Positions 7,482-33,047 of a DNA stretch of 34,693 nucleotides are shown piece after piece; the first letter of the stretch is position 1; every line of letters begins with the position of its first letter. A model generated the notes under the pieces. It was given only the letters and a program-made list of their open reading frames with translations. It did no database searches and had not been told where the DNA came from. A program made the position numbers and the translations under genes. Source of the stretch: Ureaplasma sp. Hg2 (GTDB taxonomy: Bacteria > Bacillota_I > Bacilli_A > Mycoplasmatales > Mycoplasmoidaceae); contig JAACJW010000011.1 of NCBI GenBank assembly GCA_021378525.1, positions 1 to 34,693 on the forward strand, in the 5' to 3' direction.

Positions 7482-8366
7482 CTAATCATCTAAAATTGAT
7501 TCATCAAAACTATTCATGATTTCTTCTAGTTCCTCATCAACGTTCTTTTCACTAACGGGTTCTTCGTTTTTTATTATTTTAGTATCGTTAGCCTTCGCTT
7601 GTTGTTCATTGTATTCGACTTGATGCTTTGTCAAGGTTCAATCGTGACCGCGAGCATATAATAATTCTGGATCATTAATCAAGTGATTGGATTCGTTAAT
7701 TTTCAATTTTTCTTTTTTCGAAAACTTTGATGGTTTAGAAGAACGTGTTGTTAAAGCTTTAATATCGTCATCATTTAATGATTCGATTTTAATGGCGCCA
7801 TTTTCTGATGCTTCTAAATCATTAATAAAAGTTCCATTCGCAGTAACGCCAGCTACTTTTGAACTTTTTAATTTTACTGTGGGTTCAAAATAAACGGTGG
7901 GATCAATCGATGAAATTATATGTTCATTTTCATAATCAGCTATTTTCTTAAGTCGATTTGCGTGACGTCCGCCCAAAAATTTATTTGTCAAAAAGATGGT
8001 TATCATTTCGATTATTTCTTCAACATCAAACATTCTGGCACCAAAAGCAATAACATTAGCGTTGTTATGTTGTTTTGCTAATTCTGCGGTTTCTTTATTA
8101 TATAACAGGGCAGCACGAATACCATGGACCTTGTTAGCAGCAATGCTAATGCCAATGCCGGTCCCACAAATTATAATTCCTAATGATTTATCATCACTAG
8201 CAACTCGTTCAGCAACTTTTATTCCATAATCAGGATAATCGACACTATCAAAGCTATCGGTTCCTAAATTAACCATTTGATAACCTTCTTTAGTAAAGTG
8301 GTTAATAATTTCTTGTTTGAATTCCGGTGAAGAATGATCTCCTCCGATATATATTTTTTTAGTCAT
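7482..8366 (-). CDS. rpiB: RpiB/LacA/LacB-family sugar-phosphate isomerase with long C-terminal extension
   Basis: 294 residues; TGA near 7635 is Trp and the true stop is TAG at 7482-7484. Residues 1-145 are a full RpiB domain: GGDHSSPEFK at the start, CGTGIGIS with active-site Cys67, NVIAFGARM and GGRHANR. RpiB interconverts ribose-5-phosphate and ribulose-5-phosphate in the non-oxidative pentose phosphate pathway. The family is usually about 145-150 residues, so the second half is an addition: a segment rich in Lys, Ser and Asp, a motif with Trp near ARGHDWTLTKHQ, then an acidic tail ending SILDD. I do not recognise the extension. The start overlaps the tsaC stop by 8 bases, so translation is probably coupled. 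Confidence 0.88.
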
Positions 8367-17076: not shown

Positions 17077-19593
17077 TTACTTTATTATAAATTCTAGAAA
17101 TTCATGGCCTTTAATAGTTGCTTTGTATTCTTTAATAGCTTTATTTTTAAGTTCTACATTAGTAAAAAAATTGATTTGAATATCTTGTTTTTCTGATAAC
17201 GGATTTAAAAGGCGAAGTATTTTTTCGTGATCTAAATTACGATATAATGCCGACTGTATCAAACTACCTTTTTGAATATCATATATTTTTTTAATTGTTG
17301 AATCACATTCGAACCCTTTTGTATTAATGTTGGCCAAACTAGAAGGCGCGTAATTAATTTTACTAGAACTATATATTTGATTTATGTATTTAAATTTTTC
17401 ATGATTTACTAGAGTTTTTTTAATATCTAAATTAGCATTATTAACAACAAAATTATATGATATTTTAGATAATTGTTTGTGCGAATCTGGAGTGGTTATA
17501 GTTTTGTGATCAATATATTTTAAATCGGTTGCTCGTGATAATAAATTATTACGTTTTAAATATTTATGAGTTCTAAATAATGTGGCATCGATTTGATTTG
17601 CTGAAGTAAATATATATTCACGACAAATATCACTATAAAGACTGTAAAACTTTTTATCCTCATTGATATAAATTGAATTTTCAAAAACATTATAATTACT
17701 ATCGACTTCAAGTAAATTAATGGCCTTTCAATCCAATAACTCTCTAATGTTTTCCTTCTTTACATAACCCATTTGTTGGTTAACGTAATGGTTTTTACTA
17801 TCAAAAGGTACTTTAAAAGTAATTGCTGCGTGGATATCTTCTGGTATTCGATCGAAGGTTACATTTATAAATTTATCATCATCATGAACAATAACTTTGA
17901 TGTTAAATTTCATTTCATAATCGCAAATTTTATTTAGTCAATTATTTAAATGACTAGGGACATGAAGACTATATGCGTAATCATGACAAGCGAATCCATT
18001 GTTACCTGAGGTAGTTTGGCTTAATAGCTTGGCATTTTTAAGTGATAATAAAAACTCATCATTTGCTTCAGGCGCGTGGTTGAAGGCGTCACCGCTTTCA
18101 GCGCAAAACTTCAAATCAAATATATCAAGATAATTAGTTTGCTTAATTTCTGGTTTACGATTCTTGTTCGCGGTATATTTAATTTTTAATGGCAGTACAC
18201 TAAAAGGAGCTAATTCATGAACTTTTAGAAGAATGGTTTTAGCATATAAAGGTTGCTGTGGTTTTTCTACCAAATCATTAGTAGTGGTAATTTGCTTAAT
18301 ACCATTACTAATTTTTTCACTTTTAAGTGTAATAAAATCAAGTGATTTATTACCGTCTAAAATTTCAAAATCTGACTTATAACCAATAATTTTACCTTTG
18401 AAATAGAAATCATTTTTATAAGGAGTAAGATTGAATAAAATAATATCGTCAAGAAATTTACTTGTGACAACCTTTTTAACGAGGTCAATCATCGCAGAGG
18501 CTAGACCGTCGGCTTCAATCAGCCTATTTTTAATGTCTCTATTAACATTATCAGGGTTTGCTCCCGAATATGCGTGCTGACCTTCTGAGGCTAATAACTT
18601 AGTTCACACTTTGTTAATAGAAATTTCAGGGTAAACAAAATTTTGTTTAGTTAAAATATATAATGGTTCGACAACATGTGTCATTTTAGAATCCAAGTTT
18701 GAGATAAGTTTCTTTATATCCATTCTTGTTGAAGACACAGTCTTATGCACGGCTCCGCCGTACGAAATATCAAAATCCCCTTTATATAAAACAAGGCTAT
18801 CTTCATCAATCTCTTTTTCGACCGCCTTAATAAATTCTTCTAATGTTGATAAAATATATTTATTTTCAGAATCAATATTATTTAGTTTAGCGACAACTTC
18901 AACTAAATTTACATTAAATGGAGTTATGTCGCCACCAACTAATAATGGGACGTGTTTATACTTGCCAGCAGATTGATATTTAATAATACGTTTAATTCGG
19001 TTTTCATAAATTTGTTCAAAATCTTTATTATTATCTAAATAACCGCAACCTTTATATCCGGTTATTAGGTTATACACTAGGACATTATTGTCTGGGGTAC
19101 CTCATCTAAAAATTGGCTCTCTTCGACTTTTGTTATAATCCACACCACGGTAAATTATTGCTCATTTAAGGTTAAGGTGGTTGTATAAGGTTGCGATTGA
19201 ACCGTTAGCCCCAAAAGCGTTTGGAGTATAAGCATACGGCATCGGCTTTCCATAATTATTTGCAATTTTTTGCCCATATTTAAGGTTACGGATTAATGAT
19301 TCTCGCGTTGTTAAACGAAGATCAGGTTGATTATATCAAGGACCGATTTGAAAGTTATATCTAGATACTAGATCCTTTAGAATAGAAATGTATTTCTTAT
19401 CCAAATGTCAATCATCAAACATACATACTTGACCGCCCATTAAGAATGGGACATAATATGTTTTTATTTCAATAGCTAAATTATTAAACATTTGCTCAAA
19501 TAAAACATTGGTTTGGGCAAATGTATAATTTCACTCCTGATCTCAGTGGGTATGATGGATGACATGGATTACATGATGATTGTTAGTAGACAT
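17077..19593 (-). CDS. GH38 alpha-mannosidase-like protein with substituted nucleophile
   Basis: 838 residues, close to E. coli MngB, with TGA Trp throughout. GH38 enzymes are zinc-dependent alpha-mannosidases; MngB-type enzymes cleave 2-O-mannosylglycerate or mannose oligosaccharides. Aligned blocks: HHTHWDQEW (zinc ligands H16 and D18), IGPWYNQPD, the FG block near 124-128, GSTRMDIK-like SSTRMDIKK, and GQHAYSG with H340 at the fourth zinc-ligand position. The block that normally reads PDxFG, with Asp as nucleophile and zinc ligand, reads PNAFG here (N125), and the HD pair is HA (A341). The fold is clear but activity is doubtful. A ribosome site (aaggag) precedes the ATG. It follows the permease by 105 bases and is probably cotranscribed. 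Confidence 0.85.
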
Positions 19594-19698: not shown

Positions 19699-21321
19699 CT
19701 AATGTTTTAAGTTTTTTTGTTTTTGAACTAAAATTTCGCCTCATGTACCAAATATAGTGGCTAAAATGATAAACATTAACACCGTTGTCTTAACGATATT
19801 TCCTATTAAATTTTGGTGCATTTCATGATATAAACCAGCGTTATTTACGAAAATCCCATCACTATTTTTTATTAAATTAGTAGCTGTTTCACTTTGATAA
19901 AAAGAGCTATTAGAATTATAGAAAAGATCATTGCTAGCCATAATACCTAAATCTACAAATTGTTGAATAACAATAAAAACAACGGATGCACTAATTAGAA
20001 ATGTAGCGATCACTGCCGTATAAACGAAATGCTTATTTTGTTTTATTTCGGTGTTAAAGTGTTTCTTTCGATTAATTAATCCGCCAAAAATAGCACCAAC
20101 AATCATTACGAAAATTAATAGACTCGTCCAGTTTAATAATAAGTCGACAAAACTATATAAATTATTTGTTGGATTATTAGAGGTTGAATTATTCATTCCA
20201 TAGTTATAGTTGTTCAAATTAAGAAAGCCATAAGCTCCAATTAAACTAAAAACAACAACTTGAAAAACGACCGTAATAGCAGTTAGATAAACACCTATTT
20301 TAACGCGTTCATCCTTAGATAAGTGAGCGAATCTTTTGGTAAAGACGATATCCTTATCGGCTATTAAATCACTATACACTCGAGGTGTCATCATTGCCGA
20401 TGTATTCAAGCAGCCTAAGGCACTAACCGCAACAAGAGTGTTGAGGACAGCACTCATTCATCCTGGCATTGCTAAGCCACTCATTGAACCATCAAAGGAG
20501 CCAACTAACATAAAGATGGTTAATATTATATAAATGACGGTTAACATTACTAAACCCCAAAACATTGCTTTCGGAGTTTTTTCAGGGTCCTTCATTTTAG
20601 TTTGCAGTGATGCACTTTTATAAAATCCATCAAACGCAAAAAAGATTGAAGGGACAGAAGCCATGAAACCAATTCAAGGTGTTAGAGCTAACATCGGTTG
20701 TTTATAGATTAAACTATTGGCATGATTTGGATCTAATGGAACCGGGAGAAAGTTGATGGTGTTTGCGCCATTAACGTTACTTGTTACACCATAAATAATA
20801 ATGATTAAAATTGGAAAGAACTTTAGTATTGTTATTAATATATTAAGGCGGTTACCTCACATACTAGAGATCCCAGTTCAAAAAATAAACCACATGGCAA
20901 TAGCCAACACAATTAAGGATAGCCCCCACCACGGAAGCTTAAATCCATAAGCGTTTTGAAGCATCATCACAACATAAAAAGGAAGCCCGAAATAAACAAT
21001 CGGTAGATAACAATAGGCCATAAAATTTTTTGCCATTTTATAAATAAACTCGTTATTCATATTCTTATTTCAATGCAAAATTCCTAAGTCACTATGCTTT
21101 GAATTACTGGCAATTTCAATTAGAGCGATACCCATTGAAATAATAGCCACCCCAACGATGACCCAAGATATAATGGACATCAGTAAAGAACCCCAATTAT
21201 CAGTTAGGACAGTTTCGTTTTTAAAGAAAATTCCGGTTCCGATAGTACCGCCACCAACGATAAATATAGCTGATAGAAAACCTATTTTTTTATTCGTTTT
21301 TTTAATTTCGATTTTAGCCAT
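19699..21321 (-). CDS. APC-superfamily amino acid permease
   Basis: 540 residues with twelve hydrophobic segments. The first contains GGGTIGTGIFF, the substrate-binding glycine loop of APC transporters (G-[GS]-x-IGxGIF). Segment 6 has the FFAFDGF pattern typical of the family (family FFAYxGF). It is an amino acid:proton symporter or exchanger in the plasma membrane; the substrate is not readable. In-frame TGA codons near 21072, 20880, 20460 and 19740 are Trp, so the gene is intact. A large loop between segments 9 and 10 and a second of about 60 residues before segment 12 are Asn/Ser-rich and probably outside. The ribosome site is weak (aaagg). It lies between the big lipoprotein gene and GH38, same strand. 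Confidence 0.88.
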
Positions 21322-25277: not shown

Positions 25278-28200
25278 TTAGTAATATTTATTATTGCTAA
25301 TAATCTTTGAAGTATTATAATATTCGTTGACATTGAATGCTTGAGCAGAATTATTACTATTTGATAATTCGTTTTTCATTATGTTTGACATGTCGTGGTT
25401 ATATGAATGACCATCTCATTCGCCACTAACATCCCAGACAATCATCCCACCTAAATCACTGTTGTTAATATAGTTACATTTTTGAGTAATTGAATATGGT
25501 GTATCGGTTGTTGTGACCTTACCTGATTGACTATTATAATAATATTGAGCATTTGCTACTTCATCAGTATAAAGGCCTCAATTAGAACCTTTTCCTTCAT
25601 TAGCCATTTTTGCATAAGATCCAGAACCTGCGGTTCCGCCCGTATCTTCTCAATCACCTTGAAAAGTCCCGGTTTTACGAGCAAACAATCCAGGTAATTC
25701 TTTAATTGGCGTGCCTTGAGAAGGGTTGGTAAAGAACCCTCGCGTATAAAAGGCACCACCGATAAGAATTTTGCTCGAAGGGAAACCAAGGTTATCAGTT
25801 AAATAATCAACACCTTTTTTAGTGCTAAAATCATAGCTATTCAAGAATTCGTTAGTAATAGTATCTCGATCGCTTGAACTAAAATAACCATTATTGATAT
25901 GATATATCTTATTGTTTATTGTGACGGTTGGTTGCTGGTTCACAATTGCATCAGCCAATAATTTATCACTATCTAAACTAGCCATATTACCAAAGAAATT
26001 ATCAAACGAACCGTGCATATCGTAGGACATTAAGTTGAAGTAGTCCACATAGTTGTTTAGTTCTGAACTCAATCCCGCTTGCATGTTTGTGATGTTAACA
26101 GATAGAGCTGTTGATATAGTGGTGTTTCTAACGTCACCATCATTAGAAGCGTCTAATCCCGCTCTTAATTCCTTAAGGAAAGTAACGAAATTGGCTTTAT
26201 CGTTTTGCATCGGATATTCTCAATCGATATCGACGTTATCAAAACCTCATCTCTCAATAAGAGCAATTATATCGCCAATCATATTTTGCCGTTTAGTTTC
26301 ATCGCACATTATTGGGGCGAAATATGTTCTATTACTTCACCCGCCAATTGACATCGATGTTTGGAAACCATAAACACTTTTAGCGGCGTTCATTTCTCCC
26401 ATAATTCCACCATTTTCAACGGTAGCATCTAGTCCGCCTCTGAAAATATATTTATTTCCGTTAGGCCACACATCATACCCCGTCTTATATGATCTACTAT
26501 AGGTCCCACCATATTTAGCTGGATTTAAATCTGAATCAAAGTCACCCCAACCATCCATAAAGCCGATGTGGCCATCGCTAGAGTGAGGTTGAATAAAGGA
26601 CATAATATAATCATTGTAATTACCAACGTCACCATTGCCAGGCAATTTATATGATGCATGTCCGCCGTATTGAGCTCAATCCGGATAATAACCAGTTCTT
26701 CTTTTATAAGGTTTACCATTGGTTTTCATGTCAGCAACATTAATATTTCAATACTTAGAAGGTGTTGCATAATTATCTTCGTTTGCACCGTTAGGTGTTT
26801 CTCGTTTTATATCATCATTGAAGATGATTGAATATTCTAGATAACCACCCGCATCATCTGGATGTAAGTTAATTCTGCTAATGTAACTTTTCGGTTCTAA
26901 TTTATTGCCATCAGAATCCACTAGTTTAATTAGATTTGTTTCAATATAATCAGCTGTAATTGAACTAGGTAGTTTAGAAGATTTATCATGTGATGACATA
27001 TCATTAATTTGTAGCGTCGGAACAGATAATGGATCATAGGCAAATGTTCCTGTAAAACTTCATACGGTTCGTCTTTCAGTTCCATATTGACCGTTTTTGA
27101 CAGCATACTTAAATGTTATAGTTACCTTACCTTTTATATAACCACTATATGCTTCGCCTGTTTTAGCGTAATCAATTTTTGTTACGTCTGAATATTGAAG
27201 CCCTTCATGCATTACACAAAATTTCTTAGCTTGATCTATTAAAGACATACTTTTATAAGAGCTAAATTTCCCGTATGTTCCACCACTATATGGTAATTGT
27301 ACTCATGCATTTGTAGTTGGCGGTGGCGGTGTGGGAGAATTTGTTTTAAATCCTTGAAAGTTTGTAGTTATTGAAGTTTGCAATTTACCATTAATTGTTA
27401 TTTCGGTTTGGAATTTAATTGTTATACTAATTGATCCAATATCATCATCAGGTGTAGTGGAAATAGTTGGTTTTCCATATTTTGTAATGTAAGCTTGATC
27501 AATATGAACTCAATTATTTAAAATATACTCATCATTAAAAACACCGCTGCTTGGCAGTTTGTTTTTATCAGAATCACTTGGCGATATTCAATACACGTTA
27601 TAAATTGTAGCTTGAGTTGCAAAGCCATGGAAAGTTGTTGAAATCATTGTTTTTAATTTACCATCGATAGTTATATCTGCTTTAAAATTAATTGTTATCT
27701 TAATGGTTCCGTTGATGTCATCAGTCTCTTTTGTAACTGAAGGAGCTCCATATTTTGTAGTATATTTAGAATCAATGTTAACTCAATGATCTAAAATATA
27801 GCTACTATTGAAATCACTATTACTTGGTAGATTTTCTTTATCATCTTCACTAGGTGATAATCAATTTACATTATAAGTAGTTGGTGTAGGTTCTGGTCCT
27901 GGAGTGGTGTAAAAATTGGTGAATGTATGACTATCAGATTGTTTTAGACTACCGCCGATTGTCACTTGAGTTTCAAATATAACATCAACTTTAATTGTGC
28001 CAGCACTTTTATTTGTTGTGATGGTAATGTCTGGAATATTTGAATATTTATCTTTATAAGTTTGACTCATACTCATCCAATTTGTTCAAATATAGCCTTC
28101 ATCAAATTTAGCATTATCAGCTGCTAAATCAGTATCCTCTTTGGGAGGTGTTCCTCATGAAAATTTATAGGTTTCAGCAGGAGTTAAGAAATTGGTAAAG

Positions 28201-28868
28201 ATATGAGTATCAGACGATTTCATTGTTCCATTAATAGAAATCGGAGCCTCAAAAGTAATATCTACTTTAATCGTTCCAATTGATTCGTTAGGTGTAATTT
28301 TCATTTCGGGAATATTATGATATTTATCAGTATAAATAGAATTAACACTTACTCAGTTATCTCATATATATTTACTATCGAAAGTTTTGTCACTAGCAAA
28401 TAATTTTTTATCAGCATCAGATGAATCACCCCAATTAAAAGATGCTACCGTAGGATTTGATATCGCTAAGCCTGTAATTTTAGTAGAAATAGAAGTTACT
28501 GAACTTCCTAAATATAATACGTTGGACGCATTATTAAAAGTAATATCAACAAATAATGAACCATCACTATCGTTTTCATTGTAAATTCGGATTGAAGGGG
28601 CTTTATATTGAGATTCGTAACTTGGGCTATTTTCATCAACTTTAGAAATGGTATATCAACTTGATATATTTCCGCTCGTAACCTTGCTTGGCAGGATGGT
28701 TTTCTTATCATCTCCGCCATTAAAATTTCAAACAAAATTATATTGATCAACGTCGCTTTCATCTGAATGTGTTTTTGATGTTGATGAACATGAAGTAACT
28801 AGTAGTACGGGAGCCGCAACTAATAGCGATGTAAAAGCTAATAGAGTTAGACTTTTTTTGATATTCAT
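25278..28868 (-). CDS. GH18 chitinase lipoprotein 1
   Basis: 1196 residues with many TGA Trp codons. The signal peptide ends LVTSC (C27), so the enzyme is tethered outside the cell. Five N-terminal modules of about 90 residues follow, each with the pattern FxW...P...D...L, YI...NW, a Y-x-x-KY segment, GTIKV and a closing GF or NF; they resemble the mollicute lipoprotein-associated (Lipoprotein_17) domain. A Pro-rich linker leads to two accessory domains and then the GH18 barrel: RRTGYYPDW, MSIGGWS, DxxDxDxE as DNVDIDWE (catalytic E884), MSYDMHGSFD and GGAFYTRGF. All catalytic residues are present, so it should hydrolyse chitin or related GlcNAc polymers. A consensus-like promoter and strong ribosome site (ggagg) precede it. 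It is the downstream paralogue of a tandem pair. Confidence 0.92.
27345..28742 (-). repeat. Five Lipoprotein_17-like modules of chitinase 1
   Basis: The first module is the most diverged; the other four share FDxxYIWxxW-type, KY-x-x-[IA]P and GTIKVDITF-type cores. Boundaries are approximate and set by the recurring Y/F-x-x-W starts and the Pro-rich linker (SPTPPPP). Confidence 0.65.
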
Positions 28869-28909
28869 TTTAATTTCCTCCGATTTCATATATTAAGATT
28901 TCGGATTTA

Positions 28910-29183: not shown

Positions 29184-32100
29184 CTAATTTTTATGTAGAT
29201 TAATAACTTGATTTGTTTGGTAATAAGTTTTAACATTGAAGGTTTGTGATATTTGTGGATCATTCATTTGAGACTTCATTATATTAGACATACCATGATT
29301 ATAACTGCTACCATCTCATTCACCACTTATATCTCAAACTATCATTCCGCCTAAATCATCACTCTTAACATAATTGGTCTTTTGAGTAATTGAGTATGGA
29401 GTGTCAGTTGTGGTGATTTTACCAGTTTGATTATTGTAGTAATATTGCGCTTGTGAAACAGGGTCGGTGTATAATTTTCACCCAGTTCCTTTTGCTTCAT
29501 TAACCATTTTAGCGTATGAACCAGATCCGGCTGTTCCAGTTGAGTCTTCTCAATCTCCAGCAAATGTTCCAGTTTTACGCGTGAACATTCCAGGCAATTC
29601 TTTAATTGGAGTTCCTTGACTCGGGGATGTTATGAATCCTCTTGTATAGAAAGCTCCACCAATTAATATTTTATTACTTGGATAATGCAATGTTTTGGTT
29701 AAATAATCAACACCTTTTTTAGTGCTAAAATCCATAGCGCCTAAAAATTCATTACTAATTGTTTGACGATCACTTGAACTAAAATAACTATTATTAATTG
29801 TATAAGTCTTACCTTCGATAACGACAGATGGACGTTCATTAACGATTGCCTCTGCTAATAATTTATCACTGTCTAGACTAGTCATATTACCAAAGAAATT
29901 ATCAAACGAACCATGCATATCGTAAGACATTAAATTAAAGTAATCAACATAATTATTTAATTCAGGACTTAACCCTGCTTGTTCATTAGTTTGATTAACT
30001 GATAGAGCAGCTGAAATAGTAGTATTTCTAACGTCAGGATCATTAGAGGCATCTAATGTTTCTCTTAATTCTTTAACAAAAGAAACATAGTTTGCTTTAT
30101 CAGCGGATGTAGGATATTCTCAATCAATGTCAACATTATCGTAGCCTCAACGAGCTACAAAATTAACTATATCATTAATCATGGTGGTACGTTTAGATGC
30201 GTCACTCATTACATTGGTCATCATATGACGATAACTTCATCCACCAATAGACATCGATGTTTGAAAACCATAAACACTTTTAGCAGCATCCATTTCTCCC
30301 ATAATACCACCATTAATCATTGTGTTATCTAAAGCTACTCGACCAAAATGTTGGGCACTATTAGGTCATAACTGAAATGAACCACCAGGCAATTTTTTAG
30401 CATAAGTGCCACCATATTTACTTGCTCCCATTGGACTATTAAAATCTCCTCAAGCATCATAATATTGAATATGTCCAGTTGTTTCATCAGGTCTAATGAA
30501 ACAGAATATATAATCATTGAAATTATCAACATCACTACCACCAGGTAATTTATATTCCGCATGACCACCATATTGGGCTCAATCTGGGTAATAACCAGTT
30601 CTACGCATATATTGTTTACCATTAGTTTTAAGACCACTTACATTAATGTTTCAATAATTTGATGGGCTACTATAATCATCGTCATCCGCACCCTTTGGTG
30701 TTTTACGACTAATTGGTGCTTTAAAGATAATTGAATATTCTAAAAAGCCGCCTTCATCATTTGGATGTAAATTAATTTTTGATATGTAATCTTTTGGTGA
30801 TAATGTTTTTCCTCTATTATCAATTAACGTGATTAAGTTAGTTTCAATATAATCAGTTGTAATTTGACTTGGTAATTTAGATGCTTTATCACTTGCACTC
30901 ATGGCGTTAACTTGTAATTTAGGAGCAGATGCTGGATCATTAATGAAATTAGCTTTAAAACTCCAAGACGTTCTTTTATCTGTGCCGCCCTTTACGTTTG
31001 CCACTTTTTGATTAAAGTTAATAGTTACTTGACCCATTATATAAGGATTATAAGACGAACCAACATTTTTGTAATCAATGGATTTTATATCGGTATATTC
31101 TAATCCACCATTAACTGTACATCATTGTTTTCCTTGATCTATTAAAGACATATCCTCATATTCACTGAATTTACCAAATGTTTTTCATGTTTGACCAGCA
31201 TATTTCATATGCATTCAAGCGTTTGTTACTGGCGGAGGTGGAGGAGTTGGTTTAGTTTTAAACCCTGTGAATGTTGTTGATATAGAATTAACGGTATTAC
31301 CTTTAAATGTAACTTTAGTTTGAAAATTTATTGTTAAGTCTATCGACCCTTTATCTGAGTCGGTTTTTCTTGTGATGCTAGGATTACCATATTTTGTGTA
31401 ATACGCTTGATCGATTTTGACTCAATGAGCTAATATATATTTATCAGTGAAAGCACTATCGTCTGGTAATAATTTTTTATCATTAGCGCTAGGTGACAAT
31501 CAACTAACATTATAAATGGTCGCAGGAGTTTGAAAACCTGAGAATGTAGTTTTAATGGTTTTAGTTTTAACACTATTGAACGTAACGTCGGTTTTAAAAT
31601 CGATTTGTACAGTTATTGTCCCTTTGGTTAGATCATATGTTTTTGCAACGGTTGGGTCACCATATTTTGTAGAATATGCTTGATCAATATTGACTCAATT
31701 TTTTAGAATATACGCATCAGTAAAAGAACTATCGTTTGCTAAAAGTGTTTTATCAGCAACACTTGGTATTTTCCAACTGACTTTATATTTCGGTGGAACG
31801 GGAGTAGGAGGCGTAGTAAACCCAGTAAATTGATCTTCGGCTATTAATTTACTTTGGTTGTCAATCAGTACTTCAGTTTTAAAATTAATAGTGACATCTT
31901 TTGTTCCGGCAGATTTATTATCCTTAATAGTAATTTTTGGTGTGCCTGGATAATTATCTTTGTATAGTTGATCAATATTAACTCAATTATTTCAAATATA
32001 ATCATTAGTAAATAATTTATTATCTACCATTTTTTTCCTATCGTTTACAGATGGCCCCTTCCAGCTAAAATGATAGACTAATTCTTTAAAGCCATTGAAA

Positions 32101-33047
32101 ACTTTGTAGCTTTGTGATTTTAAATGTCCATCAATCATAACGTTTGTCTTGAAGCTAATACTTACTTTAATTGAACCCGCTTTTAAATTAGGTGTAAAAG
32201 TTATATCTGGTATGCTAGGATAGTCATCTTTATATTTTTGATCAATATGCATTCAATGTTCTCACGCATATTCTTTAGTAAAGGAGCTATCGTTCACGTA
32301 CAATGATTTATCATGCGCGTTAGGTTCGATTCAATTAAATTCGTGAGTTGTAACGGGAGTTTTAAAATTAGAGTATGTTTTAGAAGCGCTAGTCTCCATG
32401 ACGCCCTCAACTGAAACCGCCTCTTTAAAAGTGATGCCAACTTTAACTTCGCTGGTTGATTTAGTTTTTGTAAGCGTTATATCAGGAATACCTTTATATT
32501 TATCCTTATAACCTTGATCTATTTTCATTCAGTTATTTCATACATAATCCTTAGTGAATAAGGCATCATCAGCATAACGATTTAAATCTGATGCAGATGG
32601 CCCGGTTCAGTTAAAATTATAAACTCCAGGTTTTTTTATTTCTAATCCACTTATATTGGTGGATACCGAAGTTACACTCTCCGATAGATAAGAAACATTA
32701 GCTGAATTAGCAAAGGTAACATTAAGGGATAAAGTCCCTGCTTTGTCATCTTGATTGCTTATCTTAATAGATGGAGCCTCATATTTTTTATTATATTCGG
32801 GGTCACCCTTTGTAGCGGCATCAATTGAATATCAATATTTAGATATATAGTTAGGTTTTACTTCTGATGGTAAAATAGTCTTCTTATTCGTATCGTCATC
32901 AAAGGTTCAATTAAAGTTGAATTTTTCACTATCTACTTTGTTAGAATTATCTGACGATTTCGAAGCACAAGACGTAGCTAATAATATTGGAGCACCAATA
33001 AGCAATGTTGAAAATGCTACTAATGCGATACTTTTTTTAATATTCAT
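29184..33047 (-). CDS. GH18 chitinase lipoprotein 2
   Basis: 1287 residues, same plan as chitinase 1: lipobox LATSC (C27), N-terminal modules (six here), Pro-rich linker TPPPP, two accessory domains and a C-terminal GH18 barrel with RRTGYYPDW, MSIGGWS, DNVDIDWE (catalytic E977), MSYDMHGSFD and GGAFYTRGF. The length difference of 91 residues equals about one module. The catalytic halves are much more alike than the modules, with nucleotide runs identical for 30-35 bases. It is expected to be an anchored exochitinase or endochitinase; the mode cannot be told. The ribosome site aaggagg lies 8 bases before the ATG. The upstream 400-base region carries a candidate operator and an oppositely oriented small RNA gene. 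Confidence 0.92.
31250..32945 (-). repeat. Six Lipoprotein_17-like modules of chitinase 2
   Basis: Modules 2-6 share the core NWxxIDQxY-x-x-KY, a [GS]-x-P start of a strand, and closing GF. The first module is the diverged counterpart of chitinase 1's first. Boundaries are approximate. Confidence 0.65.

Follow-up and report, generated by a model that had tools for sequence, protein, structure and literature searches.

A maintained GH38-fold protein of Ureaplasma sp. Hg2 with asparagine at the nucleophile position and an altered zinc site

A GH38 alpha-mannosidase homologue of Ureaplasma sp. Hg2 (hereafter P0001) carries asparagine where the family has its catalytic aspartate, and further changes in its active-site pocket are common to its ortholog in a second species. 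On balance, its sequence leads us to favor a selectively retained, catalytically disabled paralog, a pseudo-mannosidase that would be cytosolic, non-hydrolytic and sugar-binding; P0001 has probably exchanged hydrolysis for binding or for a different function. The gene lies on contig JAACJW010000011.1 (GCA_021378525.1), of which positions 1-34,693 were analyzed (the window; 34,693 nt). Features are located in Table 1.

Table 1. Coordinates in the window of P0001, its active-site positions and its neighbors
Feature	Position	Strand	Details
P0001, GH38-fold protein	17077..19593	-	838 aa, NCBI table 4, start ATG 19593-19591
His16-Trp17-Asp18, two kept zinc ligands	19540..19548	-	alignments
Asn125 (AAC) at nucleophile/zinc-ligand Asp position	19219..19221	-	alignments; identical codon in ortholog
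Asp222, kept general acid/base position (SpGH38 D232, SpAms1 D493)	18928..18930	-	alignments and literature
Gln339 (CAG) at zinc-ligand His position (SpGH38 H351)	18577..18579	-	alignments
His340 (CAC) at substrate-binding Asp position (SpGH38 D352)	18574..18576	-	alignments
Phe504 at SpGH38 Tyr574 position	18082..18084	-	alignments
GH1 glycosidase, convergent with P0001	15627..17069	+	NEP and ENG motifs intact
APC-type amino acid permease	19699..21321	-	PF13520, 156 bits; upstream of P0001, 105 bp gap

By its predicted structure, P0001 has the GH38 fold throughout its length, and it belongs to the family both by sequence and by full-length architecture. Read with UGA as tryptophan (used nine times over the 838 residues), the frame matches the GH38 N-terminal domain (PF01074) at 87.5 bits against a Pfam cut-off of 25, while Alpha-mann_mid stays under its own (20.3 versus 31.1 bits). 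The best NCBIfam match is NF007331 (MngB, mannosylglycerate hydrolase), whose score of 326.9 bits lies far short of the 1138-bit cut-off for MngB equivalogs. The closest solved-structure sequences found by phmmer are the GH38 enzymes of E. faecalis (3lvt/5kbp) and S. pyogenes (SpGH38; 2wyh/2wyi), with which P0001 has the full-length fold in common: the top PDB matches of its AlphaFold2 model (pLDDT 74.4, pTM 0.82) are all GH38 over their full length, with TM scores of about 0.75-0.80 for the bacterial ones (0.79-0.80 for 5kbp). E. coli MngB, a GH38 2-O-(6-phospho-alpha-mannosyl)-D-glycerate hydrolase, resembles P0001 in domain order, in having no obvious signal peptide and in its H-x-H-W-D, R-G and G-x-D motifs. 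In contrast to MngB, P0001 has Asn125, Gln339 and His340 for Asp, His and Asp, and no adjoining PTS transporter.

GH38 enzymes cut alpha-mannosides through a covalent intermediate on a zinc-holding Asp, by a retaining double displacement. This residue is D125 of SpGH38, both nucleophile and zinc ligand (PMC2815779), and its counterpart in S. pombe Ams1 is D402 (PMC7609781). The initial annotation had reported an 838-residue frame with Asn at residue 125, encoded by AAC, and had matched this Asn to the Asp of the PDxFG block. Our alignments agree: the match is gap-free in phmmer alignments with 3lvt, 5kbp and 2wyh and recurs in two MAFFT alignments. Only the span given for the TPNAFG motif was off, since 19213-19230 reads YTPNAF (residues 122-127) and TPNAFG occupies 19210-19227. 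Among the 132 sequences with a letter in this column, Asp is present in 127, Asn in P0001 and its ortholog, and Thr in one (L079); the other two are misaligned fragments. Non-Asp letters in L084 and L085 reflect frame-fragment misalignment and L109 is badly aligned, and none of these was counted. Relocation of the nucleophile to another Asp, named at the outset as a way the assignment could fail, was rejected, as the block contains no Asp and its flanks are gap-free. P0001 therefore lacks, in its PDxFG block, the Asp nucleophile of an active GH38 alpha-mannosidase.

The active site is more altered than was first described, because the zinc-ligand His column holds Gln339. H16 and D18 were rightly listed as conserved, but H340, taken for another kept ligand, was placed one residue off: Q339 aligns with His351 of SpGH38 and H340 with Asp352. 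Likewise, the residue following H340 is Ala, as stated, but Ala341 falls on a conserved Ser column, and the Asp thought to be replaced there belongs to the column of H340. This gap-free register of residues 339-341 was set between the flanking anchors Trp330, Asp348 and Asn351. Of the 130 sequences that have a letter in column 339, 127 show His, only P0001 and its ortholog show Gln, and L036 shows Tyr. The four zinc ligands His, Asp, Asp and His are thus an incomplete set in P0001 (H16 and D18 kept; N125 and Q339 changed). At column 504, Tyr is found in 43 of 46 sequences with a letter (order-plus-MngB alignment), while Phe occurs naturally in 9 of the 30 sequences of alignment A2, including some canonical GH38 proteins. 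Judging from these alignments, substitution has affected two zinc ligands out of four, the Asp that contacts substrate and, probably, a Tyr of the pocket, so that D125, H351, D352 and Y574 of the SpGH38/E. faecalis type are N, Q, H and F. Equivalents of W18, F127, R149, Y192 and D232 of those enzymes remain. Kept residues comprise H16, D18, W21, D91, E98, F127, R149, Y180 and D222, the last at the position assigned as general acid/base in the literature (PMC7609781, PMC2815779); an active GH38 alpha-mannosidase has this Asp as well. Altogether, 27 of 34 near-invariant GH38 residues are kept in P0001 and 29 of 34 in the ortholog.

Asn125 appears to be peculiar to this pair within the order. GH38 was detected in the same 30 of 320 genomes whether Pfam or P0001 was used as the query, and Asp125 is kept in all other GH38 loci of the order. 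Scanning genome contigs with P0001 alone yielded no matches; with the two-species alignment as query, 59 relatives were recovered, none with Asn at 125. In a survey alignment of 54 sequences (order loci plus MngB and L154), nearly every member has the canonical catalytic residues, and real departures in the zinc and nucleophile columns are found in P0001 and its ortholog, L036 (genome G232), L034 (G248) and L154/L079 (G357); non-Tyr letters at column 180 in one sequence group are alignment slips. L036, from another mollicute family, carries D18N, G128C, H339Y, D340H and Y504F but, unlike P0001, keeps Asp125. Its identity to a canonical relative is 38% over 873 columns, and it groups with canonical sequences in the tree, so it lost these residues independently of P0001. 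The D340H and Y504F changes are the same in both proteins, each of which is also missing two zinc ligands, a parallel that stands out as the most intriguing of these results. With His beside a lost His339 in two lineages, His340 of P0001 might be a replacement or relocated metal ligand. The terminal branch of P0001 is the longest in the tree (3.15 changes per column); P0001 pairs with long branches only, and its placement inside GH38 is unsure.

Several of these loci have features of their own. L036 corresponds to L153:8273-10867, an intact frame of 864-878 aa; next to it are encoded a SIS-domain regulator and a protein of 2257 aa containing ten Lipoprotein_17 domains. In L154:7284-10118 (944 aa, from G357 of the same class), the nucleophile Asp is Thr (GYTATSYG), and the neighbors are a putative GxGYxYP glycoside hydrolase and a HAD phosphatase. 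L034 has Tyr for zinc ligand His16 (HTYWD) and is otherwise canonical; a second GH38 copy in G248 contains an in-frame TAA.

Since the carboxylate nucleophile is gone and the zinc site is crippled, normal hydrolysis by P0001 would, on the established mechanism, be blocked at any useful rate. Binding without cutting is plausible because solved structures show sugar retained by other GH38 enzymes whose nucleophile has been mutated (PMC7609781, PMC2815779); by their entry titles, 3czn, 3cv5 and 7ufu are such structures. Drosophila Golgi mannosidase II D204A and the Bl_Man38A nucleophile mutant resemble P0001 in the lost nucleophile, and their solved structures still have sugar bound. These laboratory mutants are engineered single changes, whereas P0001 is natural, has additionally lost the zinc His and is fixed in two species. 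The kept stacking residues Trp21 and Phe127, together with Arg149, Tyr180 and Asp222, could still accommodate a sugar resembling mannose. By eye, the N-terminus shows no evident signal peptide, which suggests a cytosolic location, where P0001 may bind a mannoside or similar glycan uncut and act as a sensor, store or partner protein. Weighing against a disabled protein, the kept acid/base and remaining ligands would suit an enzyme too.

Retention under selection is best judged against G001, the sole other genome of the genus examined, so that comparisons rest on two species in total; both genomes are drafts (46 and about 40 contigs), with completeness of G001 only about 85%. The G001 ortholog, likewise 838 aa, shares 71% identity with P0001 and shows no indels or stop; its codons 125 and 341 are AAC and GCA, and its residues 339-341 again read QHA. 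The draft assemblies, and one neighboring ligand misaligned in the initial annotation, might raise suspicion of a sequencing, assembly or alignment artefact, but the identical AAC codon and QHA residues in an independently assembled species, in conserved gene order, refute this, and with it the GAC-to-AAC sequencing error named at the outset as a possible source of Asn125. Between the orthologs, dN/dS (NG86) is 0.085 over the whole gene, with 0.051 in residues 1-275 and 0.119 in residues 366-838, and neighboring genes give similar values (0.036-0.163); with dS saturated at about 2.3, these ratios are rough. The initial annotation's impression of a maintained gene was thus well founded, and the evidence it proposed for a selected change, Asn in more than one species with dN/dS well below 1, was obtained, with two species. 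Of the three readings it offered, a pseudo-enzyme and changed chemistry are both viable; recent loss of function finds no support in a change common to intact proteins that have diverged this far. A dispensable remnant drifting toward loss would fit the exceptionally long terminal branch and the lower identity of the C-terminal half (64.5%), yet we consider it very improbable: both copies are indel-free despite saturated dS, and the pocket is the best conserved part (87% identity within four residues of active-site positions versus 70% elsewhere). The gene is thus under purifying selection, which is strongest near the active site. Where the pair jointly departs from a strong canonical consensus, the substitutions concentrate in the pocket (22, 23, 125, 134-136, 148, 338-343, 504, 507), a pattern that looks like remodelling kept by selection. 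Catalytic residues lost together with selective retention, as found here, are the marks of a pseudoenzyme.

An ordinary GH38 mannosidase able to work with Asn and Gln in these positions would account for the preserved fold and most of the invariant residues, and both side chains could bind metal weakly. Such tolerance is hard to credit, however, given the near-universal Asp at 125 and His at 339 in the aligned sequences, and because the covalent step is lost when the carboxylate nucleophile is missing (PMC7609781, PMC2815779). The main rival to a disabled protein, unlikely though deserving attention, is a re-purposed enzyme whose pocket was rebuilt for other chemistry or another substrate: Asp222 would serve as acid/base, His340 would be a relocated metal ligand or the site metal-free, and an external nucleophile (water, phosphate or the substrate's acyl group) would replace Asp. 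Retention of Asp222, Arg149, Tyr180, H16 and D18, the separate origin of His340 beside a lost His339 in two lineages, and the large number of coordinated changes that both species have fixed in the pocket are consistent with such an enzyme. On the other hand, the nucleophilicity of an Asn side chain is very poor, relocating a ligand by one residue requires a local register shift of which the gap-free flanks give no sign, and no GH38 enzyme lacking the nucleophile Asp was found in the literature searched. A broader proposal, that mollicutes repeatedly turn GH38 into a class whose zinc site has been taken apart and re-formed about a His located one residue downstream of the former ligand, yielding glycan sensors or an enzyme with a non-Asp mechanism, seems improbable.

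If P0001 is a disabled, sugar-binding protein, it would add to the GH pseudo-enzymes already known in other families (e.g. PMC6549527); no natural GH38 protein without its nucleophile is described in the open-access literature searched, which omits most subscription papers. GH38 proteins without the nucleophile are automatically annotated as alpha-mannosidases, and as a result the metabolism predicted for these organisms would be incorrect. Retention of an 838-codon disabled enzyme in small genomes, together with a second lineage bearing overlapping changes, makes it directly testable what the GH38 fold does when it does not hydrolyze.

The order of the GH1, GH38 and APC permease genes, along with genes further out, is common to G001, and the permease may be functionally tied to P0001. 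Contig C16 of the same genome encodes a canonical GH38 protein (PDSFG), truncated by the contig end, next to a fructose/mannosylglycerate-type PTS transporter. Neither this type of GH38 nor its PTS subunit was found in G001, about 85% complete, where the best PTS match has 33% identity; a role for P0001 as partner of the canonical paralog is therefore unsupported. Further upstream of P0001, the window contains two adjacent, similar lipoproteins (25278-28889 and 29184-33047), each combining Lipoprotein_17 domains with a GH18 domain of chitinase type at the C-terminus; DxxDxDxE is intact in both. An RpiB-like protein of 294 aa with a long C-terminal extension (7482-8366) overlaps a Sua5-like gene, an arrangement that is the same in G001. 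A leucine-rich-repeat lipoprotein is encoded at 1638-2951 and resembles another encoded on contig C16 (L039:11019-12110).
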